A stretch of 64,000 bases of DNA, from the NCBI RefSeq assembly GCF_009193325.2, contig NZ_CP059856.1, forward strand, positions 4,650,001 through 4,714,000, written 5' to 3'. A model generated the notes under the pieces. That model was not told the DNA's origin, did no database searches, and saw nothing but the letters and a program-made list of their open reading frames with translations. This stretch comes from Bacteroides zhangwenhongii. GTDB taxonomy: Bacteria; Bacteroidota; Bacteroidia; Bacteroidales; Bacteroidaceae. The translations under genes were made by a program, and so were the position numbers. Positions within the stretch are counted from its first letter, which is position 1; each line of letters starts with the position of its first letter. Shown in pieces: positions 26,509 to 59,340 of the stretch.

Positions 26509-26537
26509 CTTGGATCTGTTATATATCCTTTTTTTGA

Positions 26538-26610
26538 GCCTCTTGTCGGATTCGAACCAACGACCCCGAGATTACAAATCACGTGCTCTGGCCAACTGAG
26601 CTAAAGAGGC
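26538..26610 (-). tRNA. tRNA-Thr (anticodon TGT)
   Basis: The 73-nt minus-strand sequence folds as a cloverleaf. The acceptor stem is GCCTCTT with AAGAGGC, the D-arm GCTC...GAGC, the anticodon loop TTTGTAA (anticodon TGT, one T-T mismatch in the stem), the variable loop five bases, and the T-arm GTTGG TTCGAAT CCGAC. CCA is not encoded. The terminator at 26472-26508 follows, and the probable SRP RNA lies immediately upstream in the same transcript. Confidence 0.97.
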
Positions 26611-26614
26611 GGGT

Positions 26615-26710
26615 GGGTAAGCTATCTATATCGCGCCGCTACAACCAACTACCTTTGCTGCGATCAAGCCCTGGAGGATTCGAAGGGAGCTGGCCGTATA
26701 GGACTTACCC
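26615..26710 (-). ncRNA. ffs: Probable small-type SRP RNA (4.5S)
   Basis: On the minus strand the sequence carries a closing stem (GGGTAAG with CTTACCC, then CTATA with TATAG). It also carries GCAGCAAAGGTAG, which matches the GCAGC-CAAGGCAG core of E. coli 4.5S RNA, preceded by CCAGGGCTTGATC in the place of the GGAA-loop region. The length of about 96 nt fits the bacterial small SRP RNA. It is followed after four bases by tRNA-Thr and preceded by a perfect Bacteroides promoter, so the two RNAs are probably processed from one precursor. The identification is by eye; a covariance-model search was not done. Confidence 0.75.
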
Positions 26711-26722
26711 GTTTTGCGGTTG

Positions 26723-36521: not shown

Positions 36522-38072
36522 TTACAAAGGCAAACCATAACGACCGTCTACTATCTTTTCCAATTGTTGCGACATTTTCGTCACTATTTTCGGATTCTTC
36601 TCTGCTACATTATTCTTTTCAGTCGGATCTTTCTTTATGTCATAAAGTTGAGGTTTCATGCTGTTACCTAATTCAATATTGACATTTTTGTTATATGCAG
36701 GACCTTTCCCGGGACGCAGGTATTTCCACCGTCCATCCGTCAACGACAGATTATTCTGTGCATTCTGAAGTACCAGCCATTCCCGACCTTTCTTTTCTTT
36801 ACCTGTCCAGGCATTCAGTAACGGTTCACTATCCGGAGCAGCTCCCTCCGGCAAACGGAAATTCATCATTTGCGCAAAAGTAGCAAACCAGTCTATCTGA
36901 CAAAGCAACGCATCCGAAACGGTACCGGGACGAATCACTCCCTGCCAACTCCAAATACACGGCACACGTGTACCGGCTTCGTAAGCACTGTATTTTCCTC
37001 CACGATAAACACCTCCGGGTTTATGATCGCCCAGTAATTCTACCGCCTGATCCTTATAACCGTCATCCACTACCGGCCCGTTATCACTAGACAAAACCAC
37101 CAATGTATTTTTATCCAGTCCCAAGCGTTCCAATGCATCCAGCACTTGTCCTACCGACCAGTCAAATTCAAGAAGACAATCGCCACGAGATCCCATACCG
37201 CTTTTGCCAACAAACTGAGGAGACGGCACACGAGGAACGTGTGCATCCTGAGTGGCGAAATACAAAAAGAAGGGAGCATCCTTGTGTCCTTCAATAAAAG
37301 ATATCGCTTTCCCGGTTAAAGTTTCCGCAATCTTATCATCTTGCCAAAGAGCGGATTTTCCACCTTTCATATACCCGATACGTGAGATACCGTTGACAAT
37401 ACTTTGATTGTGACCATGGGAAGGATGCATTTTCAGCAGTTCCGGATTGTCTTTCCCGGTAGGTTCACCCGGAAAGTTCTTTTTATAACTTACTTGAATC
37501 GGATCATTCGGATCAAGATTAATCACCCGGTCGTTTTCCACAAAAACACACGGCACACGGTCACCGGTAGCGGCCATGATAAATGAATAATCAAACCCGA
37601 TATCATTTGTGCCCGGTTTCAAAGGCTTGTTCCAATCCTGTTCACCTCCCTTGTCGCCAAGTCCCAAATGCCATTTACCTACCACCCCCGTACTATATCC
37701 TGCCTCTTTGAACATATCCGCCATTGTATAACGTTCCGGACGGATGATAGATGCGGCATCTCCGTCTGCAATTCCCGTTCCTTCCTTACGCCAAGCGTAT
37801 TCACCGGTCAGCATAGCATAACGGGAAGGCGTACTTGTAGCGGCAGCACTATGCGCATTTGTAAAACGTACTCCCATCTTTGCCAAACGCTCTACATTAG
37901 GAGTGTGAATCGTCTTCGCTCCATTGCAACTCAAATCACCATAGCCTATGTCATCGGCATAAATAAAGACTACATTCGGACGGTTTATCTGTCTTTCCTG
38001 GGCAGATGTCTGAGAAACCAGACAAGAGGTTAAAGCCAAAGGCAATATACCATAATAATATTCTTTTTTCAT
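36522..38072 (-). CDS. Type I sulfatase, arylsulfatase-A-like (Ser-type)
   Basis: The 516-residue secreted sulfatase has a signal peptide ending near TSAQ (residue 25). The formylglycine motif is STPSR at residues 80-84; Ser80 would be oxidised by an anaerobic sulfatase-maturating enzyme encoded elsewhere. Metal ligands sit in IYADDIGYGD near the N-terminus and SSDNGP in the middle; GKWHLGLGD carries catalytic Lys/His. A small C-terminal domain (about 420-516) completes the fold. It may belong to the S1_15/S1_16-like groups that act on sulfated galactose or GalNAc; this subfamily guess is from memory. It is the last gene of the PUL, 30 bp after the GH2-GH29 gene. Confidence 0.92.
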   Translation of the reverse strand: MKKEYYYGILPLALTSCLVSQTSAQERQINRPNVVFIYADDIGYGDLSCNGAKTIHTPNVERLAKMGVRFTNAHSAAATSTPSRYAMLTGEYAWRKEGTGIADGDAASIIRPERYTMADMFKEAGYSTGVVGKWHLGLGDKGGEQDWNKPLKPGTNDIGFDYSFIMAATGDRVPCVFVENDRVINLDPNDPIQVSYKKNFPGEPTGKDNPELLKMHPSHGHNQSIVNGISRIGYMKGGKSALWQDDKIAETLTGKAISFIEGHKDAPFFLYFATQDAHVPRVPSPQFVGKSGMGSRGDCLLEFDWSVGQVLDALERLGLDKNTLVVLSSDNGPVVDDGYKDQAVELLGDHKPGGVYRGGKYSAYEAGTRVPCIWSWQGVIRPGTVSDALLCQIDWFATFAQMMNFRLPEGAAPDSEPLLNAWTGKEKKGREWLVLQNAQNNLSLTDGRWKYLRPGKGPAYNKNVNIELGNSMKPQLYDIKKDPTEKNNVAEKNPKIVTKMSQQLEKIVDGRYGLPL

Positions 38073-38102
38073 CTTATGTTCTGAAATAATAGGTTATCTG
38101 TA

Positions 38103-42971
<4,869 letters not shown>

Positions 42972-45302
42972 CTATTCAATAATGATCTCATCAAAATATA
43001 CTCTCGATTCCTGTCCCGGACGAACATGGTCGGCAGGACATTCCCCCGCTCCATTCACCGTTACACGAATATACCTTGCCTCCGTTCCTTTCATATCCAT
43101 AGAAAGGTCTTCAATATAGGTGCCTTCACGGAATATTTCTTCAGGAGTGTAGTTCAATCCGGTTACGTCACGATAAGATTTATTGTCGTCTGATACAGCT
43201 ATACGTATTGATTTCGGTTTATGTACGCCCATACCATAGTTCGTGATACAACCGATTGTAAAAGTATTCATTTTTTCCTTCTGCTGCAAATCTATGGTAA
43301 AAGAAATAAGGTCGTTCTTGTCCCAACAGCACCATTCAAAGTCAGTCTGTTTCAGGCTTCCACGAACACCATTGAGCATAAGCATCTCATTCTGTTTATT
43401 TCCAAGTATCGTCTTAGCGCTCGCTTTGTTCCACGTAATCGGTAATACAAGCGTCTTTCCCATCTGCACACCTTCTGCAAAGGTAGCACATTTAATGAGT
43501 TGAGTCCCTGTTACGATCAGTGAGTCTGAATACACAGAAGAATTTGCCGCAGGTTCACTGCCGTCGATAGTATAGCGAATCTCTACATCGGGACGAATAC
43601 ATTCCAGATTTAACTTCAACCCACCGTTTTCCGGTGTTACTTTATGCTGGATATTGTACATCGAACGGGCATAGACAATACCTTTTTCTGCAATATGCCC
43701 GTTATACCGGTCCATAGCTTGCAGAAACGAAGCCCAATCTTTCTTTTCCGGTTGTGTCCACGCTACTTCCGCCACCGCTGCCAGACGAGGGAACAAAAGA
43801 TAATCCACATCTTCCGGTTTATTACAGAATTCCGTCCACATAGAACCTTGTACCCCCATCAGTAATGAAGCATATTCCGGTTTCCAGTCTTTTTGTACCG
43901 GTTCATAGTCATATACATCTTTCAATGTATTATTGCCGAAATATGTCAAAGGTTCGAACCATTGCGGCCCTTGATAACGAATCAGATACATGACACGTGC
44001 CGGAGTCATAATGAAACGGTGTCCCTTTTCCGCAGCTTTCAGTGCAGCCTTGCCATATCCCTGCCAACCAAGAATAATAGAGCCTTCCGGTAAGAAACTA
44101 CTGTTAGTCAGTTCATCCCAACCAATCACTTCACGACCTTTACTACGTACATAGTCACTTATCCGCTGCATAAAATAGCCTTGAAGGTCTTCTTCATTAG
44201 CCAAGCCTTCTTTCTTCATACGAGCCTGACACAACGGACATTTTTTCCAATGTGTCTTTTGAGCTTCATCGCCTCCGATATGGATATAACGGGAAGGGAA
44301 TAACTCCATAATCTCATCCATCACATTCTGCAAAAAAGTGAAAACGCTGTCATTTCCGGCACAAAAGATGATTTCTGAGTTTCGTCCTCCCAAACCGGGC
44401 AATACACCGATATAGTCCTTCACTACCGGACAAGCCAATTTCGGATAAGCCGTCAATGCAGCGTTACTATGGGCAGGCATATCTATCTCCGGCACAATCT
44501 CTATCTGGCGTTCGGTCGCATAAGTTACCATTTCCTTTATATCTTTTTGCGAATAGAAACCTCCTATCGGAGTCGGTTCTCCGGGCTTCGGATTACGCCG
44601 GGCCGGAAACGGAACGTCCATACGATCCACTCTCCATGCGCCAACCTCAGTCAAACGAGGATACTTTTTTATTTCTATGCGCCAGCCGTTGTCATCTGTC
44701 AGATGGAAATGCAGTTTATTTATCTTCAACATCGACATACAGTCAATGATACGCAAAACGTTCTCTTTAGGAATAAAAAAACGCGACGCATCCAGTAACA
44801 AGGCACGGTACTCAAAACGGGGTTCATCCTGAACATTCATGGCAGGAATGCTCCACTTCTCTTTTTTATCCGACGGACTTTCTCTTTCGATAGATGCGGG
44901 AAGTAATTGCCGGATAGTTTGCAAAGCATAAAAGAATCCCTTATCACCGGAAGCCTTAATGATAATTTCCTTTGGAGAAACTTCCAATGAATATGCTTCG
45001 CTCTTTAAAGAAGCGTCCGTTACAAACCGAACATCCCCCTTTTCCGTAGTGCCCACAACCAACTTGGGAGTAAAACCGGCTACATTGGTAAATCGGGAAA
45101 TAAGACTGGCTGCCACAGCCGCCTGTTCCTCATTCTCCACCACAAATACAGTTTTGTCTGAGAAGAGATAGTTGCCACTGCCCGGCATCAAATGTGCCGG
45201 ACGTGGAACCAAGGGTATGTCATGTGTCAAGTTAGTATCAGTACATCCCGTCGTAATTGGTAGTAAAAAACCTATCAATAAGATAAAGATATATTTAATC
45301 AT
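42972..45302 (-). CDS. GH20 beta-N-acetylhexosaminidase lipoprotein
   Basis: This 776-residue exo-enzyme removes terminal beta-GlcNAc or beta-GalNAc by substrate-assisted catalysis. It has a lipoprotein signal (PITTGC, Cys near residue 20), a GH20b domain (about 28-150) and a GH20 barrel (about 155-510) with catalytic pair D345-E346 in HIGGDEAQ and HFHLTDDNGWRIEIK earlier. A chitobiase-C-like beta domain follows (about 540-630; IRYTIDGSEPAANSS), then an F5/8 type C-like domain (about 650-776). It lies between the GlcNAc-sulfatase-like gene (15 bp) and the GH2-GH29 gene (24 bp). Position and activity fit removal of GlcNAc after 6-sulfate is taken off. Confidence 0.96.
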   Translation of the reverse strand: MIKYIFILLIGFLLPITTGCTDTNLTHDIPLVPRPAHLMPGSGNYLFSDKTVFVVENEEQAAVAASLISRFTNVAGFTPKLVVGTTEKGDVRFVTDASLKSEAYSLEVSPKEIIIKASGDKGFFYALQTIRQLLPASIERESPSDKKEKWSIPAMNVQDEPRFEYRALLLDASRFFIPKENVLRIIDCMSMLKINKLHFHLTDDNGWRIEIKKYPRLTEVGAWRVDRMDVPFPARRNPKPGEPTPIGGFYSQKDIKEMVTYATERQIEIVPEIDMPAHSNAALTAYPKLACPVVKDYIGVLPGLGGRNSEIIFCAGNDSVFTFLQNVMDEIMELFPSRYIHIGGDEAQKTHWKKCPLCQARMKKEGLANEEDLQGYFMQRISDYVRSKGREVIGWDELTNSSFLPEGSIILGWQGYGKAALKAAEKGHRFIMTPARVMYLIRYQGPQWFEPLTYFGNNTLKDVYDYEPVQKDWKPEYASLLMGVQGSMWTEFCNKPEDVDYLLFPRLAAVAEVAWTQPEKKDWASFLQAMDRYNGHIAEKGIVYARSMYNIQHKVTPENGGLKLNLECIRPDVEIRYTIDGSEPAANSSVYSDSLIVTGTQLIKCATFAEGVQMGKTLVLPITWNKASAKTILGNKQNEMLMLNGVRGSLKQTDFEWCCWDKNDLISFTIDLQQKEKMNTFTIGCITNYGMGVHKPKSIRIAVSDDNKSYRDVTGLNYTPEEIFREGTYIEDLSMDMKGTEARYIRVTVNGAGECPADHVRPGQESRVYFDEIIIE

Positions 45303-45317
45303 GCTGATGTATTTTAT

Positions 45318-46901
45318 TTATTCTTTGCCTCTGTCCGGTGAAAAGCGAACAGGATCATTGTATTGTTCTTGCAACTTTTGCAATTCTTCTTTCAGTTCGT
45401 TCACTACGGATTGATATTCAGGTTGTCCGTAAAGGTTGTGCATTTCGGTCGGATCTGTCTTCATGTCATACAGTTCCCACCAATTAATGTCATTGTAAAA
45501 ATGAATCAGTTTATAACGTTCTGTACGCACTCCATAATGGCGTTTTACCATGTGTTCTGCCGGATATTCATAGAAATGATAATAAAGGGCTTTTCTCCAG
45601 TTTTCCGGCTGTTCTCCTTTCAATAAAGGAACCAACGAAACTCCTTGAATATCCGACGGTATCTCCGCTCCTGCCAATTCGAGGAAAGTCGGCGCATAAT
45701 CTATGTTCTGTACCATTTCAGTAATATCTCCTCTACGGTCGAATCCTTTCGGTAGACGCATTATCAAAGGAGTACGCATGGACTCTTCATACATAAAGCG
45801 CTTATCGAACCAGCCATGTTCGCCCATATAGAATCCCTGATCGGAGCTATAGACAACAAGAGTATTATCCAACAGTCCTTTTTCTTTCAGATAGTCGAGC
45901 ACACGACCTACATTATCATCAAGAGATTTCACAGTTTTCATATAATCACGCATATAACGCTGAAATTTCCAGTTGGCAAGTTCCTTACCTTGCAGATTTT
46001 GCTTATAGAAATCTTCTATAATCGGAGCATAGAATTTATCCCATGCGACACGTTGTCCCTCGTCCATCCGTCCCAAGAATTTCTCATAAAGAGATTTCAG
46101 GCGTGAATTTTTATCCGGCCTCAACATTTTAAGGTCGTAGATCATATCCATATCTTTCACGACACTCATTTCCTGAGCAGCCGCTGCAGGACGTCCTTCA
46201 TAATCGTCAAAGAAATTATCCGGCAATGGGAAAGTTTTATCTTCGTACAAAGCCAGATTACAAGTATCCGCCATCCAATTACGATGAATAGCCTTGTGAT
46301 GAATCAACAAGCAGAAAGGTTTCTCCGGGTTTCGCTTGTGTTCCATCCAATTAATGGCATTGTCCGTTATAAGATTGGTGATATATCCATGTTTCTGAAT
46401 CGTATCATTTTCTTGTGTGATGAAATCCGGATTATAATAATCTCCTTGTCCCGGAACGATTTCCCAATAATCAAATCCTGACGGCAAACTCTCCAAATGC
46501 CATTTTCCTACCAATGCAGTCTGATAACCGGCTTTCTGCAAAAGTTTTGGAAAGGTTTGTTGGGAACTATCGAAAACACAAGTCGTATTATCATAGAATT
46601 TATTGGCACAGCTATGTTTACCCGTTATCATACAGGCACGGCTGGGACCACTTAACGAATTGGCTACAAAACTTTGAGTAAAACGGACGCCATCGGCAGC
46701 AATACGGTCGAGATTCGGTGTTTCCATATAGCGAGTATCATAACAACTCATCATCTGAGCCGTATGGTCGTCTGTCATGATATAGACAATGTTCAGGGGA
46801 GGCTGTTCAGCAGGCTTTTGTTTACCGGTGCATGAAGCAAAAGAAGCAAGGGTAGCTACTCCCGCTAAAGAATAGAATAAGTTTGATTGCAGATTTTCCA
46901 T
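45318..46901 (-). CDS. Type I sulfatase, N-acetylglucosamine-6-sulfatase-like lipoprotein
   Basis: The 527-residue protein has a lipoprotein signal (SFASC, Cys24). The sulfatase fold carries metal ligands in YIMTDDHTAQ and the formylglycine motif SGPSR at 84-88, where Ser84 is modified. GKWHLESLPSGFDYW and YSSDQGFYMGEHGWFDKR are typical of the S1_11-type GlcNAc-6-O-sulfatases, as I recall them. The adjacent GH20 hexosaminidase would then act on desulfated GlcNAc. It follows the SGBP gene after a 192-bp gap that contains its own promoter box and an inverted repeat, so the four enzymes downstream may be transcribed separately from SusC/D. Confidence 0.92.
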   Translation of the reverse strand: MENLQSNLFYSLAGVATLASFASCTGKQKPAEQPPLNIVYIMTDDHTAQMMSCYDTRYMETPNLDRIAADGVRFTQSFVANSLSGPSRACMITGKHSCANKFYDNTTCVFDSSQQTFPKLLQKAGYQTALVGKWHLESLPSGFDYWEIVPGQGDYYNPDFITQENDTIQKHGYITNLITDNAINWMEHKRNPEKPFCLLIHHKAIHRNWMADTCNLALYEDKTFPLPDNFFDDYEGRPAAAAQEMSVVKDMDMIYDLKMLRPDKNSRLKSLYEKFLGRMDEGQRVAWDKFYAPIIEDFYKQNLQGKELANWKFQRYMRDYMKTVKSLDDNVGRVLDYLKEKGLLDNTLVVYSSDQGFYMGEHGWFDKRFMYEESMRTPLIMRLPKGFDRRGDITEMVQNIDYAPTFLELAGAEIPSDIQGVSLVPLLKGEQPENWRKALYYHFYEYPAEHMVKRHYGVRTERYKLIHFYNDINWWELYDMKTDPTEMHNLYGQPEYQSVVNELKEELQKLQEQYNDPVRFSPDRGKE

Positions 46902-46927
46902 AATAAATTTATGTTAGATTGAGAAAG

Positions 46928-46952
46928 CAAAGATAGGGAGGGATCCCTATCT
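46928..46952 (-). promoter_or_regulatory. Promoter box and overlapping inverted repeat upstream of the sulfatase/GH genes
   Basis: The minus strand carries TATCTTTG at 46935-46928, a perfect TAnnTTTG. A perfect 8-bp inverted repeat, AGATAGGG (46931-46938) and CCCTATCT (46945-46952), overlaps it, so it may be an operator or a hairpin in the transcript coming from upstream. No good -33 element was found. It lies about 27-50 bp before the sulfatase start. Confidence 0.45.
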
Positions 46953-47093
46953 TCACTTCCACAAATCATTAATTAAATTCCTTCAATATTTTCAGTTCAA
47001 TTCTTCTCACTCAATCTATACCAAAGTACGTCCATTTTTTACAATCCCTCTTTAGCACAGACTTTACCTCAAACCATTGAACGTTTCAATTTA

Positions 47094-48887
47094 TTAATAG
47101 AATATTGTATTTCTATTATTCGTCTCATTGCTTTCAACCTTATAAGCATCATTAACATAGAAACGAATCCAATCAATCTCCATTCTCGGTCCCTCTGTTT
47201 CAGGATCAGACACAGATTTCAGGTCTGAGTCCCATCCCGGTTCCATATTTCCAGCCTCAAGATCATCTGATGGGCTCATTCGCATTACGAGAAAAAGCCC
47301 TCTACATCCAAGCTTATTAGAAGGCATAGCAGCCTTCTCAAAAGGCCAACTTCCTAAATCATTCTTACTCACAGTCATTGTAGCAATCCCGTTAATACCA
47401 AGTTGAATATGCTCATCATCAACCAATTCCACCCAATAAATATTATATTCATTCGCTTGAGGTATGGCAGTAACCTTTGATACAGCATCAGCAACTTTAT
47501 CGCCTGTCACAGATTGTGTAATAAAAGAACCTGCTTTATTCTGAAGAATTTTTATCGCCTTAATTGCTCCATTAGACATTACATCCGGATTTTTAATTTC
47601 TATAGTAGGAACAAAGCCTGTTCGTACACCTCGCAGGCGAACTTTGAATTCAATTCTCATACCCGGGTAAATTCTGGTAAAGTTACCTAAGAAAGGGGAT
47701 CCCTGTCCACCATTAACCTTACAACATTGCATAGCACTAAATCCATACGCTTTACTGCCCCCATGCACAGCATCAGCCCACATTACCAACTCTCCATTAT
47801 TATTTAAATTAGAGCATTCTTTATTGTTCACTGTTGCTACTTTCTGAACAGCTGCTTCGTTGGAACTAGCAAAACATCTTAGCATATTAGAAGTAGCATC
47901 CCAATAATTAGCTGGCTCTATTTTATGAAATTCGACTGCATAATGAAATTTCCACCCTTCAGCAGCCAATACCTCATTAGAATGGACAGAATTTTCTTCT
48001 ATATCAGTAACTCTTCCAGTAAACCATGAATGAACCAGATCTCTATTTTGAGAAGATGCAAATGGACTCTCCGGCAATAAATAGACTTTTGTCATATCAT
48101 ACAAATCAGGATCAGCTAACGATTCAAGATCAGTCATCACAATACTTAATGTCGGGGAAATCATTGGATTTACAGAAGAAGAGCTTTCAAAATTTAAAGT
48201 TAAATTCAAATCACCCGTTTTTTCTCCATCCGCTTTAATTGTGATAGCTGCACTCTTCACACTAGTTCTTCCCGCAGGAATAGTTATTGACGAAGGCAAA
48301 TTTTCATATCGCCCTTCCTCGCCCTCTTTAGGAGTAATAGTCACATCAATAGGTATTGCCTTTGCCTTATCTATTTTTGCCACTAAAACAAATTTATCTC
48401 CTTCCGTTACTACATTATCTACATTATTTTCCAAAGACATGGTTATCCGATAATAATCGGATACTTTAATTGCTTGACTCGAATTTGCCATTTTATAACC
48501 ACGCGCGAAAGCAACAAACTCCATCGCAGTACTCCCCGTCAATCCGGATTTCTTCACTGGAAAATCCACCTGAATTTGTTTTTCACCTTTTGGAAACGTA
48601 ACAATACCGCTAAATGGTTCAAATACATCCGATACATCTTCAGTACCAGCTTTAGCCGTAAAGTAAATATCAAAGTCCTCGTTAGCTACCATCTCATTCC
48701 CATCTGCATCAGCATCCACATTGATATTTACTTTCAGATTTTCTCCCATCACAAATGCCTTTTCGTTAATGCTCATAGTCAACGGCACCGCTTCCGGCAA
48801 AGGACGATATTTTGTTTCATCTTCACAACCTGTCAAACTTATAGTAAACAAGCATATTGGAAGCATTCTATATAATATGTTCTTCAT
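47094..48887 (-). CDS. Surface glycan-binding lipoprotein (SGBP-like) with Calx-beta-like and GH16-like folds
   Basis: The 597-residue protein has a lipoprotein signal (ISLTGC, Cys21). Two beta-sandwich domains resemble Calx-beta or DUF1735-type repeats (about 36-145, 148-255). A C-terminal domain (about 275-597) looks like a concanavalin/GH16-like fold: LKFHYAVEFHKIEP, AKILQNKAG, WVELVDDEHIQLGING and the ending GPRMEIDWIRFYVND, where GH16 enzymes end with a similar VDYVRVY. No GH16 catalytic ExDxxE motif is seen, so binding rather than cleavage is inferred. It follows susD by 45 bp, the usual place of a surface glycan-binding protein. Confidence 0.85.
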   Translation of the reverse strand: MKNILYRMLPICLFTISLTGCEDETKYRPLPEAVPLTMSINEKAFVMGENLKVNINVDADADGNEMVANEDFDIYFTAKAGTEDVSDVFEPFSGIVTFPKGEKQIQVDFPVKKSGLTGSTAMEFVAFARGYKMANSSQAIKVSDYYRITMSLENNVDNVVTEGDKFVLVAKIDKAKAIPIDVTITPKEGEEGRYENLPSSITIPAGRTSVKSAAITIKADGEKTGDLNLTLNFESSSSVNPMISPTLSIVMTDLESLADPDLYDMTKVYLLPESPFASSQNRDLVHSWFTGRVTDIEENSVHSNEVLAAEGWKFHYAVEFHKIEPANYWDATSNMLRCFASSNEAAVQKVATVNNKECSNLNNNGELVMWADAVHGGSKAYGFSAMQCCKVNGGQGSPFLGNFTRIYPGMRIEFKVRLRGVRTGFVPTIEIKNPDVMSNGAIKAIKILQNKAGSFITQSVTGDKVADAVSKVTAIPQANEYNIYWVELVDDEHIQLGINGIATMTVSKNDLGSWPFEKAAMPSNKLGCRGLFLVMRMSPSDDLEAGNMEPGWDSDLKSVSDPETEGPRMEIDWIRFYVNDAYKVESNETNNRNTIFY

Positions 48888-48932
48888 ATCTTTATTTATC
48901 TAATTATCATCAATAAATATTGTTCTATTCTC

Positions 48933-50756
48933 TTATTTCCTCAGCCATCCCGGATTTTGTTCCAGTTCGTGATTCAGTGACAATTCACTCGGAGGAATTG
49001 GCAGCAGATAGTCACGGCTAGAATCAAACTGATAGCCTCGTGGAAGAACCTCTTTCTGTGGATCAAGCCAACCATCCGTAGTTAAAATAGTCTTCAAATC
49101 TACAGCTGTTTTAGGATCAAATGCTTTGTATAACACACCATCTGCTCCAAAATATGCCCCTGTTCCACGTTTTCCCTGAATCAATTTGTGAGCTCTCCAA
49201 CGCATCAAGTCATCCAAACGGAATCCTTGTAAAGCTAGTTCCGACCGTCTTTCCCTACGAATTTCCTGCAATTTGGCAGAGATTGGATAACCAAAATCGG
49301 TAAAATTAGGATCAATTTCAGCAGGAGCAGTATAGGTCACTCCCGCACGTTCACGCAAAGGCTTCAATGTCTTTTCCAATACATCAGGATCACATTTATC
49401 TAATTCTTCTGCAGCTTCCGCATAAGCTAACAAAGCTTCTGCATAACGAATTATCGGAAGTGAGGTCTCACCCTGACCACTGACATAAGTTGTATCAATA
49501 CTCATACGAATATGATAACCAGTTGCATTACGTGCCGGACCACTTTCTGTTAGATAAGGAGGACGAACTTTCTGTTTATTTTCATCCGAATATTCATCCA
49601 CAAACATAGCTTTTGACTTAGACTCAGGAGATGTAGACTTAAATTTACAGTCTGAATGCATAACTGTCGCTAACAAACGAGCATCACGTTCTTTAAATGT
49701 AAGGTTGAAATCCTTATAAATTCCATCGTTAGGATCAATAAAGCTTCCGTCAGCATTCAGATAATTATCAATCAATGATTGAGCTAAACCAGCCGCTCCA
49801 CTGTTGTCCACATAACCAGCACCTAAGTTACTACTCAAATTATGAGTCACTCCATCTGCTATCGAATACTTTTTCCAAAAAACGACCTCTGTCATATCCG
49901 ACAAATCTTTCGAATTAAACAAGTGTGCATAAGCATCTTCTTTTGATACAAATTTCTTATCATTATCCTTTGTATTTAAAGAAAGTCCCATAGTAAATAA
50001 TTCATCACCTAGTGTCAACACTTGTCCCAAAAGATCTGTAGATTTATCCTCTGCGGCTGCAAAATCTGTTCCCTTATGATACTTTTCCCATGTACCCTCA
50101 TAAAGCGCCACTCTCATGGCCATGATGATAGCAGCTTCTTTGCAAATCCTCAAGCCTTTATACTGACTACGTGAATAAAGCAAATTCTTAGCCGTCTTCA
50201 AATCATCAATAATAAACTGTGCCACTGCCGAACGATCGCGTGGGGGAATTTGCAAACCTGCAACTGTAGCGTTTCCATCCCAAAATTTATCCATTACAGG
50301 AATACTACCAAATCTAGTTAGTAAGTAAAAATGCCAATAAGCACGGAAAAAATAAGCTTCCCCTTTCAGTGACAGCACATCCTTTGTTTCCTCTGCTTCT
50401 GGAACTTTATAATATTCAAAAAAATAATTTACATTACGTAGATTCTGGTATCCGTTCTGCCATTCGGCAGTACCTCCTCCTGTCTCCAACAGCTCTCCAT
50501 TAAGACGTTTATCATAAACCTCCGCCACGATATTGTCACTATTCTTTTCTTCTCCACGGACTCCCATATCATAAGTACCAAAAGAAGGAAGTGCTATATA
50601 CAAACCATTAATATAATTGTTCACTGCACTTGCATTGGACAAGAATGTTTCACTATTGGGGGTTGTCATGGGGTCTCTATCTAGAAAATCGGAACACGCC
50701 GACATCATAACACTTGCCCCTACCGCTAATAATATATATAATTTTTTCATCATCAT
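48933..50756 (-). CDS. SusD/RagB-family glycan-binding lipoprotein
   Basis: The 607-residue SusD-like protein caps the SusC channel and binds the glycan before import. It has a lipoprotein signal (MMSACSDF, Cys near 21), then the tetratricopeptide-like SusD N-terminal domain with the LRNVNYFFEYY segment and the SusD C-terminal RagB domain (YAEALLAYAEAAEEL, RRERRSELALQGFRLDDLMRWRAH). Three ATGs in a row (50756, 50753, 50750) are all possible starts. It follows susC by 7 bp. The glycan is not predictable from this protein alone. Confidence 0.96.
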   Translation of the reverse strand: MMMKKLYILLAVGASVMMSACSDFLDRDPMTTPNSETFLSNASAVNNYINGLYIALPSFGTYDMGVRGEEKNSDNIVAEVYDKRLNGELLETGGGTAEWQNGYQNLRNVNYFFEYYKVPEAEETKDVLSLKGEAYFFRAYWHFYLLTRFGSIPVMDKFWDGNATVAGLQIPPRDRSAVAQFIIDDLKTAKNLLYSRSQYKGLRICKEAAIIMAMRVALYEGTWEKYHKGTDFAAAEDKSTDLLGQVLTLGDELFTMGLSLNTKDNDKKFVSKEDAYAHLFNSKDLSDMTEVVFWKKYSIADGVTHNLSSNLGAGYVDNSGAAGLAQSLIDNYLNADGSFIDPNDGIYKDFNLTFKERDARLLATVMHSDCKFKSTSPESKSKAMFVDEYSDENKQKVRPPYLTESGPARNATGYHIRMSIDTTYVSGQGETSLPIIRYAEALLAYAEAAEELDKCDPDVLEKTLKPLRERAGVTYTAPAEIDPNFTDFGYPISAKLQEIRRERRSELALQGFRLDDLMRWRAHKLIQGKRGTGAYFGADGVLYKAFDPKTAVDLKTILTTDGWLDPQKEVLPRGYQFDSSRDYLLPIPPSELSLNHELEQNPGWLRK

Positions 50757-50763
50757 TATCTAA

Positions 50764-53700
50764 TTAAAATGTAAAATCAAGTCCGAACACGAAGTTACGG
50801 TTCATCGGATATACCATACCATTACCATTTTGCTTCATCGGAGAAGTTAAACCCGGAGCCGTATTCTTAGCATCACCACCCGCTGACATATTTACCTGGT
50901 TCAGTGTTTCAGGATCAAACTGTTTCGGCAACTTTGTTATAGTAAACAAGTTGTCGCAAGTTACATACACTTTTAGATTGCTGATACCAATATGTTTCAA
51001 CTGTTTTTTATTAAATGTATAAGCCACTGTTAGATTTTTCATACGCATATAAGCAGCATTTAACAAATAACGTGTCGTATTGTATCCAGTATTCACCAAA
51101 AAATCCTTATCATCTTTCCAACCAGTCAAACGAGGCAAATATCCATTTGGGTTCTCTGTACTGAAATAATCAAGATGTTCTTTAAAGTTATAGTTATTTC
51201 CACCAAACATATAGTTACTTCCAGCAATCGGGAAATCTCTTTTTGCCACACCTTGTAACAAGGTAGATACTTCGAAACCCTTATATCCAAGATTCAAATT
51301 AATACCGAAAGAATATTTAGGAGTAGTATTTCCAATAACCTGCAGATCTCCGTGGTCTGACAAAGTACCTTTACCACCATCCACTCTACCGTCACCATTA
51401 GTATCTATATATTTCAAGTCACCACGACGCCAAAGATCGTTTGATTTGAACGCCGTCAGATTAACTTTTCTCAGATAATCATCAATTTCACGATTCGACA
51501 AAAAGAGATCATCAGCACGATATCCCCAAATTTCACCGAGATCCATACCTTCATAATAACCTTTATTAGCAGCCAATCCTGTATGGTTATTATAAATAAT
51601 ACCTTCCGGATTATTGTATTTAGTCACTACAGCCTTATAGTTAAAAACATTGAAACCAACTCCATAACTGAAACCACATTTCAATTTATCATTCCAACTG
51701 ACAGAAAGTTCCCATCCGCGATTACGCAAAGTTGCATTATTCACTTTTGCACGATCTTCCGAAGCGATACCACTGATACTTGGTATTGATTCTGCCGGAC
51801 CAATCATGTCACGTGTCGTACGTTGATATAAATCAGCAGTAATTGACAAACGGTTCTTAAACAACATCAAATCAAAACCTAAGTTAGCATTATCCACTTT
51901 CTCCCAAGTAATATAAGGACTAATCATTTTCGGAGTTTGTGCAATCGTACCTTTGGAAGCTGTGGAAGAAGAGGTGCCCGGTAATAACCAAGCATTAGTC
52001 CCCTGTGCATCTAAGGGCATCTGAGCGATATAATCATATAAGCCCGCTCCATTTTGGTTTCCTAAACGACCATAAGAAACACGTACCTTCAACTGAGATA
52101 CAGGCAGTGCCATTTTTTGGAAATAAGGCGTGCGAGCAATATCATAACCGGCAGAGAATGATGGGAAGAATCCCCAACGATGCCCCGCAGCAAAACGGGA
52201 AGAACCATCATAACGTCCACTGAACTCCAAAAAATAAATATTATTGTAGTTCCAATTCAAACGGGCATAAAATCCCATAGTAGACCAATGTGAACGGGCT
52301 TCACCTGCTATTACATTTCCACTGGCGTTGTCAAATGAGTAAATATCATTACTCAGCATACCATCTTTGTACATATATTCCTGTGAATCTTCTTTTAATT
52401 CCATTTGGTATCCTGCCATTGCCTTGAAGAAGTGATCTCCCCATTGATGAGTATATGAACTCGAGACATTAGGTGATAAGTAATAATTGAACATACTCCC
52501 ACGAGTATAAGATCCGAAATACATATTCTTCCAACTAATACCAGGATAAGTAAATCCTTGTCTTTGATTAGTAGCATCACCCGGTTTAAAAGTACCCACA
52601 GGAGTTTCATACTTCTGATTATTTTCCATTATCAGATCGTTATTTTCTATATCAAAACGGATTTTCATTTCTCCGGTGATATCCCATCCCTCCAATGGAG
52701 TTACTGTTGCAGAAAGTGACAAAGCATCTGAAATACGGTTCCTCTGATAATGAGAATTTTTCAAATATAACATTTCATTCCAACTCGGCAAATTGTATTC
52801 TGAATCAACAGGCAACTGAGTAACCTGAGTAGGACGATGGCTACCAATCTTATTATATAGAATCATCTGATTCGCCATCGGACGTTTAATCATCTGCAAA
52901 GTAATATTATTATTCAAATTAAATCGTAACCAATTATTGGTCTTCATCTGTAATTTGGTATTCAAATTATACTTACTCAAATCATCCTGCACTTGATCCA
53001 GCAAACCCTCTTGATAAGTATATCCCATACCAATATAGTAGTTTACCTTGTCAGAACCACCCTGTACACTTAAGTTATGAGAATGACGGATAGACTTATC
53101 TTTAAAATAATAATCAAACCAATCAGTATTGCCATACTGATTATAATAGGCTCCTGCCCAATCATCACCGGAAGTATTAGCCTCAATACCCGGAAATTCT
53201 GCTGAATAAGGATTCTGCATAAAACCTTTAATCTTCTCAATAGTTTTATCCGGAATTCTCTGTAAACCGGAAGACGCTCCACCATTATCATATTGCTGAT
53301 TATTATACATAGCGTATTCCAACGAGTTCATCATCTTTGGCATATTAATAGGTGAACTGAAACCAACTGTTCCACGATAGGTGACGCTAGCCCTCTCCTT
53401 TTTACCACTTTTTGTGGTAACCAATACTACTCCATAAGCTGCACGTGCACCATATACAGCAGAAGCGGAAGCATCTTTCAAAACACTGATACTAGCAATA
53501 TCGGCAGGATTCACATTCTGCATACTCTGCTCTACTCCATCTACCAATACATATGGTTCTCCACCATTGATAGAACCAATACCACGAATACTAAATTTAA
53601 TATCTGCACCGGTTTCACCACCGACACCACCTCCCACTGCGTCCGTAGCAAAATTTAAGCCTGCAATATTACCCTGCAAGGCACTTGTGACATCTGTAAC

Positions 53701-54123
53701 AGGACGATTGACAATGGCATCATCTTTCAACGTAGCAACAGCTGCTGTAATCGTATTTCTTTTTTGTGTATCCATACCCACAACTACCACTTCATCCAAT
53801 ACTTTGGCATCTTCTTTCATCACATATTTATTTCCTTCCAATTTAGTAACCTTTACTTGCATCGGAGCGTATCCAACGTATGTAATAGAAAGTATACTTC
53901 CAACTTTTCCCTGAATTGAAAAATTACCGTCAATATCAGTAATCGTTCCTCCAGTGTTGCCTTTTACCATGACCGTTGCACCAATAATCGCCTCACCACT
54001 ATCATCCACGACCTGTCCTTTTATCATCTTTTGTTGTGCTAATGCACCAAGAGGAAACAATAACAGGAGCATCAGAAAAAGAACAACCCGTCCCTGTTTT
54101 TTCACGAACTTCTTTTTTTCCAT
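50764..54123 (-). CDS. SusC/RagA-family TonB-dependent transporter
   Basis: This 1119-residue outer-membrane transporter imports oligosaccharides with TonB energy. A signal peptide (ALAQ, near residue 30) is followed by a carboxypeptidase-regulatory-like CarbopepD_reg domain (about 33-120; VKGNTGGTITDIDGNFSI). The TonB box LDEVVVVG and the plug (SIRGIGSINGGEPYVLVDGVEQSMQNVNPADIASI.. with VLKDASASAVYGARAAYGVV) come next, and then a beta-barrel of about 800 residues ending in FGLDFTF. There is no STN domain, so control by an anti-sigma factor is not expected; an HTCS is the natural regulator. It follows the GH18 gene by 31 bp and precedes susD by 7 bp. Confidence 0.97.
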   Translation of the reverse strand: MEKKKFVKKQGRVVLFLMLLLLFPLGALAQQKMIKGQVVDDSGEAIIGATVMVKGNTGGTITDIDGNFSIQGKVGSILSITYVGYAPMQVKVTKLEGNKYVMKEDAKVLDEVVVVGMDTQKRNTITAAVATLKDDAIVNRPVTDVTSALQGNIAGLNFATDAVGGGVGGETGADIKFSIRGIGSINGGEPYVLVDGVEQSMQNVNPADIASISVLKDASASAVYGARAAYGVVLVTTKSGKKERASVTYRGTVGFSSPINMPKMMNSLEYAMYNNQQYDNGGASSGLQRIPDKTIEKIKGFMQNPYSAEFPGIEANTSGDDWAGAYYNQYGNTDWFDYYFKDKSIRHSHNLSVQGGSDKVNYYIGMGYTYQEGLLDQVQDDLSKYNLNTKLQMKTNNWLRFNLNNNITLQMIKRPMANQMILYNKIGSHRPTQVTQLPVDSEYNLPSWNEMLYLKNSHYQRNRISDALSLSATVTPLEGWDITGEMKIRFDIENNDLIMENNQKYETPVGTFKPGDATNQRQGFTYPGISWKNMYFGSYTRGSMFNYYLSPNVSSSYTHQWGDHFFKAMAGYQMELKEDSQEYMYKDGMLSNDIYSFDNASGNVIAGEARSHWSTMGFYARLNWNYNNIYFLEFSGRYDGSSRFAAGHRWGFFPSFSAGYDIARTPYFQKMALPVSQLKVRVSYGRLGNQNGAGLYDYIAQMPLDAQGTNAWLLPGTSSSTASKGTIAQTPKMISPYITWEKVDNANLGFDLMLFKNRLSITADLYQRTTRDMIGPAESIPSISGIASEDRAKVNNATLRNRGWELSVSWNDKLKCGFSYGVGFNVFNYKAVVTKYNNPEGIIYNNHTGLAANKGYYEGMDLGEIWGYRADDLFLSNREIDDYLRKVNLTAFKSNDLWRRGDLKYIDTNGDGRVDGGKGTLSDHGDLQVIGNTTPKYSFGINLNLGYKGFEVSTLLQGVAKRDFPIAGSNYMFGGNNYNFKEHLDYFSTENPNGYLPRLTGWKDDKDFLVNTGYNTTRYLLNAAYMRMKNLTVAYTFNKKQLKHIGISNLKVYVTCDNLFTITKLPKQFDPETLNQVNMSAGGDAKNTAPGLTSPMKQNGNGMVYPMNRNFVFGLDFTF

Positions 54124-54154
54124 AATATTATATTTACTAATTAAGATTATACTG

Positions 54155-55822
54155 TTATTCTACGGCAGGATTAGCATAGTAATCAAACTCTTCTTTCACC
54201 ACTTTCAACAAAGACTTATCATCTGTCACATCTACGTCCGTAGCCAAATCCCAGCTCATTATTCCACCGAAACCATTCTCACACACATACTGTGTTTTTT
54301 GGCGAATTGTAGTCTGACTATTGAGTGTATAGCTCTTTCCATTATACATCCATTCATCCACAGAAGTGTTAGTAAGATTACCTTTATTTATCAGATCATA
54401 ATAAGCAACTTGTTCACCCGCTGTTCCGGTAGTTCCATAAAAAGGTACTCCCATCACCAATTTATTTTGAGGAATTCCATATTCAACAGCAGTTTGACCG
54501 TCTGATTTGAAACGTTCGAAAGAAAAAAGAGCCGCCTGAGGTCCATAACATTGGAAAGAGATAAAATCAACTGCAGCAATTGCTTCAGGAGTTATCTTAT
54601 AAGAAACCGGATGCAAGGAAACCGTAAAAAATACATTTTTTCCTAATACGTTGCGCAGTTTTACTATGGCTTTGCTGTAATTAGTTAAGTCACTAGCATA
54701 ATAAGCCCATTCAAAGTCAAGATCGACCCCATCCATATTATACTTATCCAAAACATTCTTAACATTATTAGCAAAGTTAGTGCGCGCAGTTTCATTACCA
54801 ACCATCTTCAACCATTCACCACCAGCGATACCCAAACGTAGTTTTCGGTCTCCTACTTGTCCATTTAATGCAGCACGTATTTGTTCTAAACGAATAGCCC
54901 AAGTATGAGAATCTTTTCCGAGCTGTGCAGAATCATCATATTTCCAATAAGCAAGTGTTTTTGTATTATTCCAAATATTAGTATCAAAAGAGATAGGATT
55001 TCTACCCAACGTACCTACTTCCAAACTGCTAACGAATGTCTCATCCAAATATCCTTTGAATTTTTCTCCAAGAAAGAAATCTGCACGAGTATTAGGAATT
55101 TCAGCAGGCAGAGAACCCGTAAATTCTGTAGGGGTATTATTAGTGTCTACATATAATTTAGCCTTTCCTCCACTATAAGTTATCGCTACATAATGCCAAG
55201 CACCCGGCTTTAAATTGTCATTGACAATAGTTGTCGTAGAATTTCCAATAGTAAATTTTAAATTTCCTTCAGTTTCACCAAGTTGGAAAGATATAATGGT
55301 AGAGTTATTGTTTACCTTATTAAATAAATAAGCACCATCTATCCATTCAGTTATATATAGATAAGTACCAAATGTAAACTTCTTGTATGCCCCATCCGGG
55401 GAATGAAGTAAACCATCTCCACCGTTCATTTTTCCGGCACCATCAAATTTCACCACTCCATTACGACCTTCATAAGAAGGCATATATGATACTCCTGTAA
55501 ATTCTGCGTCATTCACCGGCAGATCAAATGTCAAGTCACCGTCAGCATAAGGACGAGCTGTCAGATAAATCAAATCATTACAAGCACCCATACTTGCTCC
55601 AGAGATTCGATTTATCTCAAAAAAATCACCACGTATATAAGAACAATTAATAAATGATTTTTCTGTTGGATCCGGTTCATCTGGTTCTTCGTCATCACCC
55701 GGTTTTCCAACAACTGAACCTTCAGGAGGAGTGCCAGCTGGAACATCCACCCATTTTGTGTCTTTACAAGCTGCCAACATTCCAAAGAGGAAGAGACAAA
55801 AAAATAGGAATTTGCTTCTCAT
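54155..55822 (-). CDS. GH18 endo-beta-N-acetylglucosaminidase-like lipoprotein with inserted LamG domain
   Basis: The 555-residue protein has a lipoprotein signal (GMLAACKD, Cys19). A Pro/Asp/Glu-rich linker (about 33-55) follows. The GH18 barrel starts at about 57 (INCSYIRGDFFEIN, then NDLIYLTARPYADGDL). It is interrupted by a LamG/concanavalin-like jelly roll of about 150 residues (about 120-275, ending near GYLDETFVSSLEVGTL), and then continues (RLEQIRAALN, LRLGIAGGEW). The catalytic motif DGVDLDFE is at 364-371, with Glu371 as acid. ISFQCYG and MSWDLATD complete the barrel. Such surface enzymes cut the chitobiose core of N-glycans; that target is inferred. It is the first gene of the leftward PUL operon, 31 bp before susC. 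Confidence 0.9.
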   Translation of the reverse strand: MRSKFLFFCLFLFGMLAACKDTKWVDVPAGTPPEGSVVGKPGDDEEPDEPDPTEKSFINCSYIRGDFFEINRISGASMGACNDLIYLTARPYADGDLTFDLPVNDAEFTGVSYMPSYEGRNGVVKFDGAGKMNGGDGLLHSPDGAYKKFTFGTYLYITEWIDGAYLFNKVNNNSTIISFQLGETEGNLKFTIGNSTTTIVNDNLKPGAWHYVAITYSGGKAKLYVDTNNTPTEFTGSLPAEIPNTRADFFLGEKFKGYLDETFVSSLEVGTLGRNPISFDTNIWNNTKTLAYWKYDDSAQLGKDSHTWAIRLEQIRAALNGQVGDRKLRLGIAGGEWLKMVGNETARTNFANNVKNVLDKYNMDGVDLDFEWAYYASDLTNYSKAIVKLRNVLGKNVFFTVSLHPVSYKITPEAIAAVDFISFQCYGPQAALFSFERFKSDGQTAVEYGIPQNKLVMGVPFYGTTGTAGEQVAYYDLINKGNLTNTSVDEWMYNGKSYTLNSQTTIRQKTQYVCENGFGGIMSWDLATDVDVTDDKSLLKVVKEEFDYYANPAVE

Positions 55823-56089: not shown

Positions 56090-56980
56090 TTATAACTTCT
56101 CTATTTCATCTACTGTCAATCCCGAAGATTGTGAAATAACATCTATTGAAACCCCTGCCTTCTTTAAATTACGCGCAATCTCAATTTGCTTATTTCTTTC
56201 CCCTTCGGCACGTCCTTCCAAACGTCCCTCAGCACGTCCTTCTGCACGTCCTTCTGCACGTTCCGTGAATATATTATCTCTCAAAATAACAATATTATCC
56301 AAATGTCTATAATAAGCATTGAGTTCTTCCTTTGTCATCCGATCCAATTTCAATCGCTGGCGTGCCTCGTTCAATCCCGGTGCAGTAGCGTTATCGGGAA
56401 TATCTCCTGTATTCAGATAGTAAATCCATTCTTCAAGCGGACTTCTTGCTACTTGATTGAAATCATTCACTTTCAATATATAATATTCCGGATAAAGTTG
56501 GCTGACAGTATCCACTTTGAAAGTTTGTTTTTGGAATGGAGTCAGTTCTAAAACATCCCCTTGATGAATTCCGCGAAATTCCGTTTTACCATGATATACA
56601 ACATCTTTACCGCTACCTAAAGAGAAATAGACGATATTAACGCTATACACTTTACGAACTTTGTCGTAACCTTCTCCACGATTTATGTATTCGGTAACCA
56701 ACTTAGATGTTCCAAATAACATACGCTGGAAATAAGCATATTCATTATTGTTTTGAACTTCTATTAAAATAAGCTCACCTTTAGAGTTTTCGGCAAGCAA
56801 ATCCACACGATTATATTTATCGTACTCATCTTCTTGATTACTTTCACTCTCCAATAATTTCTGAATAAGGATTGATTCCCCTAAAAGGGTAGTCAAAAAA
56901 CCTTCCAGTACGGCAAAATTAGCTTTATTACGCAATAAGCGTTTCATTGCCCAATCGAAACGAATATAATTACTTGTCAT
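56090..56980 (-). CDS. Rpn/PD-(D/E)XK nuclease-family protein with EGRA repeats
   Basis: This 296-residue protein of the Rpn/'PD-(D/E)XK nuclease family transposase' group has a nuclease core with Asp in RVDLLAENSKG and Glu-X-Gln in ELILIEVQNN (near 53-75). In E. coli, Rpn proteins are Ca2+-stimulated DNases that raise RecA-independent recombination. A C-terminal stretch contains four EGR/LEG-type tetrapeptides (ERAEGRAEGRAEGRLEG), encoded by 12-bp repeats at 56205-56264. The start at 56980 has AGGAGG eight bases upstream and lies about 30 bp downstream of the transcription start. It stands between the PUL and the AmgK/MurU genes, with its own promoter. Confidence 0.88.
   Translation of the reverse strand: MTSNYIRFDWAMKRLLRNKANFAVLEGFLTTLLGESILIQKLLESESNQEDEYDKYNRVDLLAENSKGELILIEVQNNNEYAYFQRMLFGTSKLVTEYINRGEGYDKVRKVYSVNIVYFSLGSGKDVVYHGKTEFRGIHQGDVLELTPFQKQTFKVDTVSQLYPEYYILKVNDFNQVARSPLEEWIYYLNTGDIPDNATAPGLNEARQRLKLDRMTKEELNAYYRHLDNIVILRDNIFTERAEGRAEGRAEGRLEGRAEGERNKQIEIARNLKKAGVSIDVISQSSGLTVDEIEKL
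56205..56264. repeat. 12-bp in-frame tandem repeat inside the Rpn gene, five units
   Basis: Units start at 56205, 56217, 56229, 56241 and 56253, each 12 bp, with consensus TCTGCACGTCCT. Each unit encodes four residues (RAEG or close), so a change in unit number keeps the frame. Slipped-strand variation in tail length is therefore possible. Confidence 0.8.
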
Positions 56981-57018
56981 TTGTTCGCCTCCTTTTTCTA
57001 TTTCTGTTTTCATTATAA

Positions 57019-57050
57019 CAAAGGTAAAGGAAATATGTTGGAATCCCAAA
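57019..57050 (-). promoter_or_regulatory. Promoter of the Rpn-family gene
   Basis: The minus strand has TTTG at 57050-57047, a 20-base spacer and TACCTTTG at 57026-57019, an exact fit to the Bacteroides consensus. Transcription would start near 57011. Confidence 0.75.
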
Positions 57051-57104: not shown

Positions 57105-57854
57105 CTATTTGCCGAAAGACCTTATAAACTCCTCTGCCTTAGCAAGTGTTTCCGGTTTACCAATATCAATAAGTTGCAGATTTTCCACCGGATAACCAAA
57201 GAAGTTCGTTTGTCGACAGGTGAAGAGATAAAAATCCATGATAGAGAACTTTCCTTCCCACAGGGGAACTTCCATTAATTGGAATATAGCAGGTGAAAGC
57301 ACATGAATGCCACTGAACGCATATTCTTGGAACAATGATTGTTCATATTGAAAACCTTCGGGTTTCACTTGACCTGTATCCTTGTTTATCCATCCGCAAA
57401 GTCTCTTCTCCGCATCGAGAAGCAGATAACGTGAAGTTTTACGTTGGCTTACCAATAAAGTAGCCAAACCATCAGTCTGCAAATGATAATCATAAAGTTC
57501 TTTCAAGTCCACATTCGAAAGAATGTCTACATTGTGTACAAGAAAAGGCTCATCGGAGTTCTCAAAAAAAGAACTGGCTTTCCGGATTCCTCCCCCTGTA
57601 TCAAGTAGCACATCACGTTCATCGGAAATATGGATAGTAAGTCCAAAATTGTCATTCACTTTCAGGAATTCAAGTATTTGCTCGCCAAAATGATGAATAT
57701 TAATTACTATTTCAGTAAAGCCGAATGCTTTCAGCTTCAAGATAACGTGCTCCAGCATGGGACGCCCGGCTACGGGAACAAGAGCTTTAGGCATAGTATC
57801 CGTCAGCGGTTTCAACCGACTTCCCAAACCGGCCGCAAATATCATTGCTTTCAT
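57105..57854 (-). CDS. Sugar-1-phosphate nucleotidyltransferase, MurU-like
   Basis: The 249-residue NTP_transferase protein has the signature GLGSRLKPLTDTMPKALVPVAGRPML at residues 9-34 (sugar-nucleotide pyrophosphorylase motif) and the metal-binding VHNVDI region near 107. MurU of Pseudomonas makes UDP-MurNAc from MurNAc-1-phosphate; mannose-1-phosphate guanylyltransferases are similar. The gene follows an AmgK-like kinase gene by nine bases. AmgK makes MurNAc/GlcNAc-1-phosphate, which MurU uses; the pair would form the cell-wall-sugar recycling route that bypasses de novo UDP-GlcNAc synthesis. Confidence 0.9.
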   Translation of the reverse strand: MKAMIFAAGLGSRLKPLTDTMPKALVPVAGRPMLEHVILKLKAFGFTEIVINIHHFGEQILEFLKVNDNFGLTIHISDERDVLLDTGGGIRKASSFFENSDEPFLVHNVDILSNVDLKELYDYHLQTDGLATLLVSQRKTSRYLLLDAEKRLCGWINKDTGQVKPEGFQYEQSLFQEYAFSGIHVLSPAIFQLMEVPLWEGKFSIMDFYLFTCRQTNFFGYPVENLQLIDIGKPETLAKAEEFIRSFGK

Positions 57855-57863
57855 AACGATCTT

Positions 57864-59294: not shown

Positions 59295-59311
59295 AGTTAC
59301 ATATTTTCGAG

Positions 59312-59319
59312 CAAAGATA
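59312..59319 (-). promoter_or_regulatory. -7 element of the AmgK-RapZ/MurU operon
   Basis: TATCTTTG on the minus strand, 18 bp before the ATG at 59294. It lies back-to-back with the HTCS promoter at 59341. Confidence 0.55.
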
Positions 59320-59340
59320 GGAATTATAAACAAATAATAC

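Follow-up and report, generated by a model that had tools for sequence, protein, structure and literature searches.

How does a gut Bacteroides make the first cut in a sulfated host glycan chain, and do the proteins that capture the chain stay with the enzymes that take it apart? The question is raised by a run of eight genes in Bacteroides zhangwenhongii, located on the minus strand at positions 36522-55822 of the 64,000-nucleotide stretch analysed here (the window; assembly GCF_009193325.2, contig NZ_CP059856.1, positions 4,650,001 to 4,714,000), within a genome of 5.3 Mb in two contigs. The run holds adjacent susC and susD genes and carbohydrate-active enzymes in one operon-like series, as is characteristic of a polysaccharide utilization locus (PUL). 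On balance, we favor the view that this PUL captures and dismantles 6-O-sulfated, fucosylated poly-N-acetyllactosamine (polyLacNAc) from host mucin or keratan sulfate, and that its import half is likely an exchangeable cassette on a conserved core. A more specific proposal, which we hold only tentatively, is that the surface half of a sulfated-polyLacNAc locus is swapped as a cassette at one chromosomal address, and that a GH18 enzyme, cutting the other bond of the chain, replaced a GH16 endo-beta-galactosidase at the endo step in one lineage. The GH16 protein would then be a dead lectin whose binding half has itself been replaced between near-identical genomes, and the GH18 would be a new cutter of GlcNAc-beta1,3-Gal in sulfated polyLacNAc.

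The families of the eight genes are backed by Pfam and NCBIfam. The series begins with the GH18 gene (54155-55822, 555 aa) and continues with a SusC-like TonB-dependent importer (50764-54123, 1119 aa; TIGR04056, 834 bits), a SusD-like lipoprotein (48933-50756, 607 aa; Pfam SusD_RagB and SusD-like_3), a surface binding protein (47094-48887, 597 aa; DUF5006/DUF5014), an S1_11-type sulfatase (45318-46901, 527 aa; also SGSH_C), a GH20 beta-hexosaminidase (42972-45302, 776 aa), a GH2-GH29 fusion and an S1_15-type sulfatase (36522-38072, 516 aa), the intergenic gaps being 31, 7, 45, 192, 15, 24 and 30 bp in this order. An earlier note on this DNA had placed these genes, their strand and their gaps of 7-192 bp exactly. 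It had also read the target as sulfated, fucosylated Gal/GlcNAc host glycans, and the family content and the closeness of the sulfatases to solved mucin-type enzymes back that reading. Signature motifs are intact in the GH18, GH2, GH29 and sulfatase parts. The gene order is largely kept in sister genomes and is therefore far from chance.

The sulfatases carry much of the assignment. The best solved relative of the S1_11-type enzyme, predicted to be a GlcNAc-6-O-sulfatase and bearing the Ser-type motif SGPSR, is 7P24 ("Mucin-desulfating sulfatase", 1077 bits over residues 30-527). We take 7P24 to be BT1628 and a member of S1_11, an assignment on which the S1_11 label of the window enzyme depends. 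The S1_15-type enzyme, a predicted Gal/GalNAc-6-O-sulfatase, has both the subfamily sequence and the Ser/Cys maturation motif (here the Ser-type STPSR); its best solved relative is 7OZE (1062 bits), presumably BT1624, followed by S1_15A (533 bits) and S1_15B (497 bits). The genome encodes an anaerobic sulfatase-maturing enzyme (489 bits, cut-off 349). In the sections of a review that deal with these enzymes, BT1628 is given as a 6S-GlcNAc sulfatase and BT1624 as a 6S-Gal/GalNAc sulfatase of one mucin-associated PUL of B. thetaiotaomicron (PMC10154612). Both window sulfatases are predicted to be 6-O specific, which fits keratan-type sulfation; keratan sulphate can carry 6-sulfate on both of its sugars, as stated in a portion of PMC7419316.

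We dropped the idea that only O6-sulfatases are available genome-wide. In B. faecis a sulfatase gene follows the regulator, and a relative of that sulfatase (84%) is present in the genome analysed here (L092:13746-15269, equal to G000:C1:5075745-5077265), some 370 kb from the PUL and in no evident PUL itself, and weaker sulfatase matches occur elsewhere. The B. faecis sulfatase has 7AN1 as its best match, which we take to be BT1636, the 3S-Gal enzyme of the same review. Given the far-off position of this relative, and given that the 14 window proteins scanned with Pfam include no sialidase, no GH95 and no second endo enzyme, the term "complete", which the earlier note had applied to the PUL, is too strong.

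The fusion supplies two further exo-activities. Its GH2 half (39876-42947, minus strand; best structure 3BGA) is of the LacZ type, with the motifs WSLGNE and CEY, and its GH29 half (38106-39866, minus strand; best structure 4ZRX) carries an F5/8C domain. The GH29 half matches the alpha-1,3/4-fucosidase 3UES at 426 bits and aligns an Asp and a Glu with D172 and E217, which we take to be the catalytic residues of that enzyme. Of the 21 main-set loci, the window included, two (G139 and G092) lack GH29; among the 19 with both, GH2 and GH29 are encoded separately in 17. They are separate too in all 14 of the further loci compared for GH2 and GH29 only, in one of which (G104) each of the two is interrupted and runs over several frames. 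A single-frame fusion is thus found in 2/33 loci, the window and B. finegoldii. The residues at the joint, GQAQ (residue 1027), are those with which the signal peptide of GH29 ends in relatives, and we infer a clean in-frame deletion, after which the fused GH29 would depend on the GH2 signal peptide for its export.

The GH18 protein has a lipoprotein-type signal and an intact catalytic DGVDLDFE (residues 364-371), and its gene is located upstream of susC, as the earlier note had said. Pfam, fold prediction and motif agree on the family: the model is a chitinase-type barrel, with a laminin-G domain (Laminin_G_3, residues ~97-265) inserted after barrel strand 2. Enzymes of family GH18 act at GlcNAc residues. 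A search of the gap ahead of the gene for the Bacteroides promoter pattern found a -7-like TACATTTG 71 nt ahead of the start, and no full match.

The binding protein proved to be more than the name suggests. Its residues ~274-581 match a GH16 fold in the predicted model, with O-glycanases among the matches, and at the position of the catalytic ExDxxE it has A444, K446 and Q449, so that all three catalytic acids are lost. The earlier designation "surface binding protein" is accordingly narrowed, by fold prediction and motif alignment, to a predicted GH16-fold protein with a lost triad, one that likely binds without cutting. By the part of PMC7419316 that describes them, GH16 O-glycanases act on polyLacNAc, keratan sulphate among it, by cutting at Gal-beta1,4-GlcNAc, and the window protein differs from these endo-O-glycanases in its absent triad. 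Among 20 homologous loci, all 12 that lack an adjacent GH18 have an intact triad, and all eight that possess one have a broken triad. A Fisher p of 8e-6 overstates this complementarity because the tree requires one change only, and we set it aside as independent evidence. The GH18-less loci of the same family keep an intact triad, so GH18 probably took over the endo step from a GH16 endo-galactosidase, with the old GH16 probably kept for binding. The simplest reading is that sulfated polyLacNAc is the single substrate and that its first cut has been solved in two ways. Four of the GH18-less loci (G012, G091, G082 and G119) have one more gene, 444-455 codons long, located between those for the GH16-type protein and S1_11 (for example, L047:4758-6104); the one scanned was DUF4988/BspA-like leucine-rich.

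The sister-locus comparisons cover 20 loci, hand-picked among the stronger matches of a search over 149 genomes of the genus. An S1_11 match at 1e-150 occurs in 95/158 genomes, some of these through other loci; beyond the 20, gene arrangement was compared in 14 more, for GH2 and GH29 only. Searches by family and by gene order over 399 and 393 genomes, which overlap each other and the genus search, gained two new loci: G172, unscorable as its contig ends there, and G169, scored as without GH18 in the operon and with GH18 nearby.

Across the 20 sister loci the enzymes are conserved and the block of SusC, SusD, binding protein and GH18 varies, a variation that was not visible from the single sequence in which the gene set itself had been read correctly. 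SusC is at least 69% identical to that of the window in 10/20 sisters, distant (22-39%) in 8/20 and absent at this position in 2/20. A GH18 upstream of susC is ~54-95% identical in 5/20 and distant (27-32%) in two more. The nearest of the named records found, Bacteroides finegoldii DSM 17565, has a GH18 95% identical to that of the window, and its SusD, SusC and S1_11 proteins are 98-99% identical; its binding protein matches at 98% over residues 1-150 and at 48% over residues 265-597. The B. finegoldii and B. faecis binding proteins, for comparison, are 86-87% identical in all three parts compared. At the DNA level, G146, G110 and G021 are 80-82% identical to the window in the S1_11 gene, align almost nowhere across the genes of binding protein, SusD, SusC and GH18, and return to 77-79% in the gene beyond the import module. 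The boundary is sharp and falls just past the S1_11 gene, within the 192-bp gap. This gap also holds a predicted 17-bp RNA hairpin (46923-46960, minus strand; -24.1 kcal/mol, z -5.8), which may separate expression of the import genes from that of the enzyme genes. Trees of the core (S1_11 and GH2) and of the import pair (SusC and SusD) for 11 loci reject each other (approximately unbiased test, AU, p 6e-45 and 3e-4). From these sequence comparisons, the genes of the surface-import half likely form an exchangeable cassette next to enzyme genes that are conserved as a core. A nuclease gene of the Rpn/PDDEXK_2 family (56090-57049) borders the variable module on its upstream side. We do not claim it as the driver of exchange, since matches occur at the border in 5/20 relatives only, some of them broken.

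The pieces assemble into a plausible sequence of events. SusD and the dead-GH16 lectin would hold the chain at the cell surface while GH18 cuts it at GlcNAc, and SusC would import what is cut off. Once this material is in the periplasm, the S1_15 enzyme would take the 6-sulfate off the terminal Gal, GH29 would remove 3/4-linked fucose and GH2 the Gal, whereupon S1_11 would take the 6-sulfate off the exposed GlcNAc for GH20 to release that sugar.

What the GH18 cuts is the point on which other readings part from this one. Complex or sulfated N-glycans could be the target, with the GH18 acting as an endo-beta-N-acetylglucosaminidase at the chitobiose core and the remaining enzymes trimming the antennae. 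The pairing of GH18 with a laminin-G domain within a host-glycan PUL speaks for it, as do a weak match to the Pfam EndoS TIM-barrel model (28.9 bits, cut-off 27) and the best solved relative of the GH20 enzyme, 6Q63, presumably an enzyme of N-glycan work. Yet the eight genes include neither a mannosidase nor a GH85 nor any other gene for trimming the core, the fold neighbors listed for the GH18 are chitinases and chitinase-like proteins, and sister loci have in their surface module an intact-triad GH16-type protein instead. We regard an N-glycan target as distinctly unlikely, and among the candidate glycans of the earlier note mucin and keratan sulfate are favored, the complex N-glycan being the weaker for its missing mannosidase and the chitinase-like fold. 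Those same fold neighbors invite the reading of GH18 as a chitinase or chitooligosaccharide enzyme, whose import module serves a glycan other than that of the core, the exchange having produced a mismatched pair. The pairing is repeated, however, a like import module occurring with GH20 in G110 and with core enzymes in five relatives, and the accompanying binding protein has a GH16 fold with O-glycanases among its matches; a mismatch seems to us quite improbable. The G110 module, at a second site (L144/L145, G110:C1:2834183-2845336), comprises GH18, SusC, SusD, a broken-triad GH16 protein and GH20, and no relative of the window sulfatases was seen beside it.

A broken triad could also be mere decay of an activity no longer needed, without any handover to GH18. 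The single event on the tree is compatible with this, and so is the graded loss over the eight GH18 loci, which amounts to one residue in G086, two in G110b and three in the other six. Against simple decay, the protein is full length (593-607 aa) in all eight, and the window copy retains its GH16-like predicted fold and its N-terminal domains; we consider decay alone unlikely. Several observations nonetheless weigh against the handover of the endo step and against the sulfated-polyLacNAc assignment. The complementarity of GH16 and GH18 is one event. G169, which belongs to a different genus within the family, combines an intact GH16 triad with a GH18 relative encoded 10.5 kb off on the opposite strand. 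Pfam calls GH16 in none of the nine binding proteins tested, and the model of the window protein is of moderate confidence (predicted local distance difference test, pLDDT, 78). The S1_15 gene adjoins GH29 in just 4/20 sister loci, so that removal of 6S-Gal is no constant part of the pathway. The chitinase-type neighbors of GH18 count here as well, and in the literature surveyed we met no GH18 acting on GlcNAc-beta1,3-Gal. The keratan sulfate endo-beta-N-acetylglucosaminidase of Bacillus circulans is placed in GH111 in the portion of PMC12997984 that treats it, and a label of "keratanase II" for the window GH18, which had presumed that keratanase II belongs to GH18, was dropped accordingly.

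A locus of this kind is already known, since the mucin locus published for B. thetaiotaomicron, around BT1624-BT1628, is similar in its enzyme half; what is added here is the import-module variation with its sharp boundary, the GH16 triad loss that tracks GH18, and the GH2-GH29 fusion. In that mucin-linked PUL, too, S1_15 and S1_11 sulfatases occur together (BT1624-BT1628 and BT1636, in the sections of PMC10154612 cited above), and proteins named for B. thetaiotaomicron include a broken-triad DUF5006 protein (P0163, motif QSICILKN), from which a GH18 gene upstream of susC would be expected in that species as well. Two protein searches listed no such GH18, but one of them also missed its own B. 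faecis query, so the result carries no weight against its presence. The window differs in having GH2 and GH29 fused, in the unlinked position of its relative of the regulator-adjacent sulfatase, and in a separate allele of the C-terminal half of the binding protein. Strain-level difference in SusC/SusD alters use of fructan in the B. thetaiotaomicron fructan PUL, by the account in part of PMC5967196, and there, likewise, the SusC/SusD pair diverges within a PUL that corresponds in its other parts. Here, unlike there, the locus is for host glycans, the difference is between species, and the varying block adds an endo enzyme and a binding protein. For B. ovatus and B. xylanisolvens, a portion of PMC8845570 describes how blocks of genes are exchanged between "nodes" of core genes. 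The variable block of the window is similarly set precisely between conserved genes, whereas its downstream boundary lies inside one operon-like run. We found no title or abstract describing a GH16/GH18 switch in the open-licence literature searched, little of the search being aimed at it.

The capacity of gut bacteria to open sulfated mucin chains is relevant to colonization and inflammation. If the surface module sets which chain is captured while the core stays constant, enzyme content alone fails to predict the diet of a strain. Through the switch from GH16 to GH18, nature offers two loci that are similar in their downstream enzymes and differ in their cutter, in which the role of the endo step is directly testable, and a GH18 active on sulfated polyLacNAc, if true, would be a useful tool for glycan analysis.

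A sensor-regulator is linked to the PUL, ~3.5 kb upstream of the GH18 gene. This hybrid two-component regulator (59373-63305, plus strand) combines a propeller sensor, kinase, receiver and AraC helix-turn-helix (HTH), and it likely controls the PUL; it falls outside the range first drawn around the eight genes, which otherwise stands. The regulator is linked at 75% identity or more in 11/20 relatives, with near and distant import modules alike, which suggests that the fragment sensed is the same across them. The quite different import module of G030 (L068:8735-10478) is accompanied by paired genes for an extracytoplasmic function (ECF) sigma factor and FecR, and the DNA retrieved around it showed no hybrid regulator. 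Between PUL and regulator (57105-59333) are genes for a MurU-like nucleotidyltransferase and for a protein that joins an AmgK-like kinase to a RapZ C-terminal domain. These matches are all under the NCBIfam cut-offs, and the pair, kept in place in 12/20 relatives, may connect the salvage of sugar 1-phosphates with a locus that releases GlcNAc. Elsewhere in the window, at 26536-26717, a tRNA-Thr gene directly adjoins that of the Bacteroidales small signal recognition particle (SRP) RNA.

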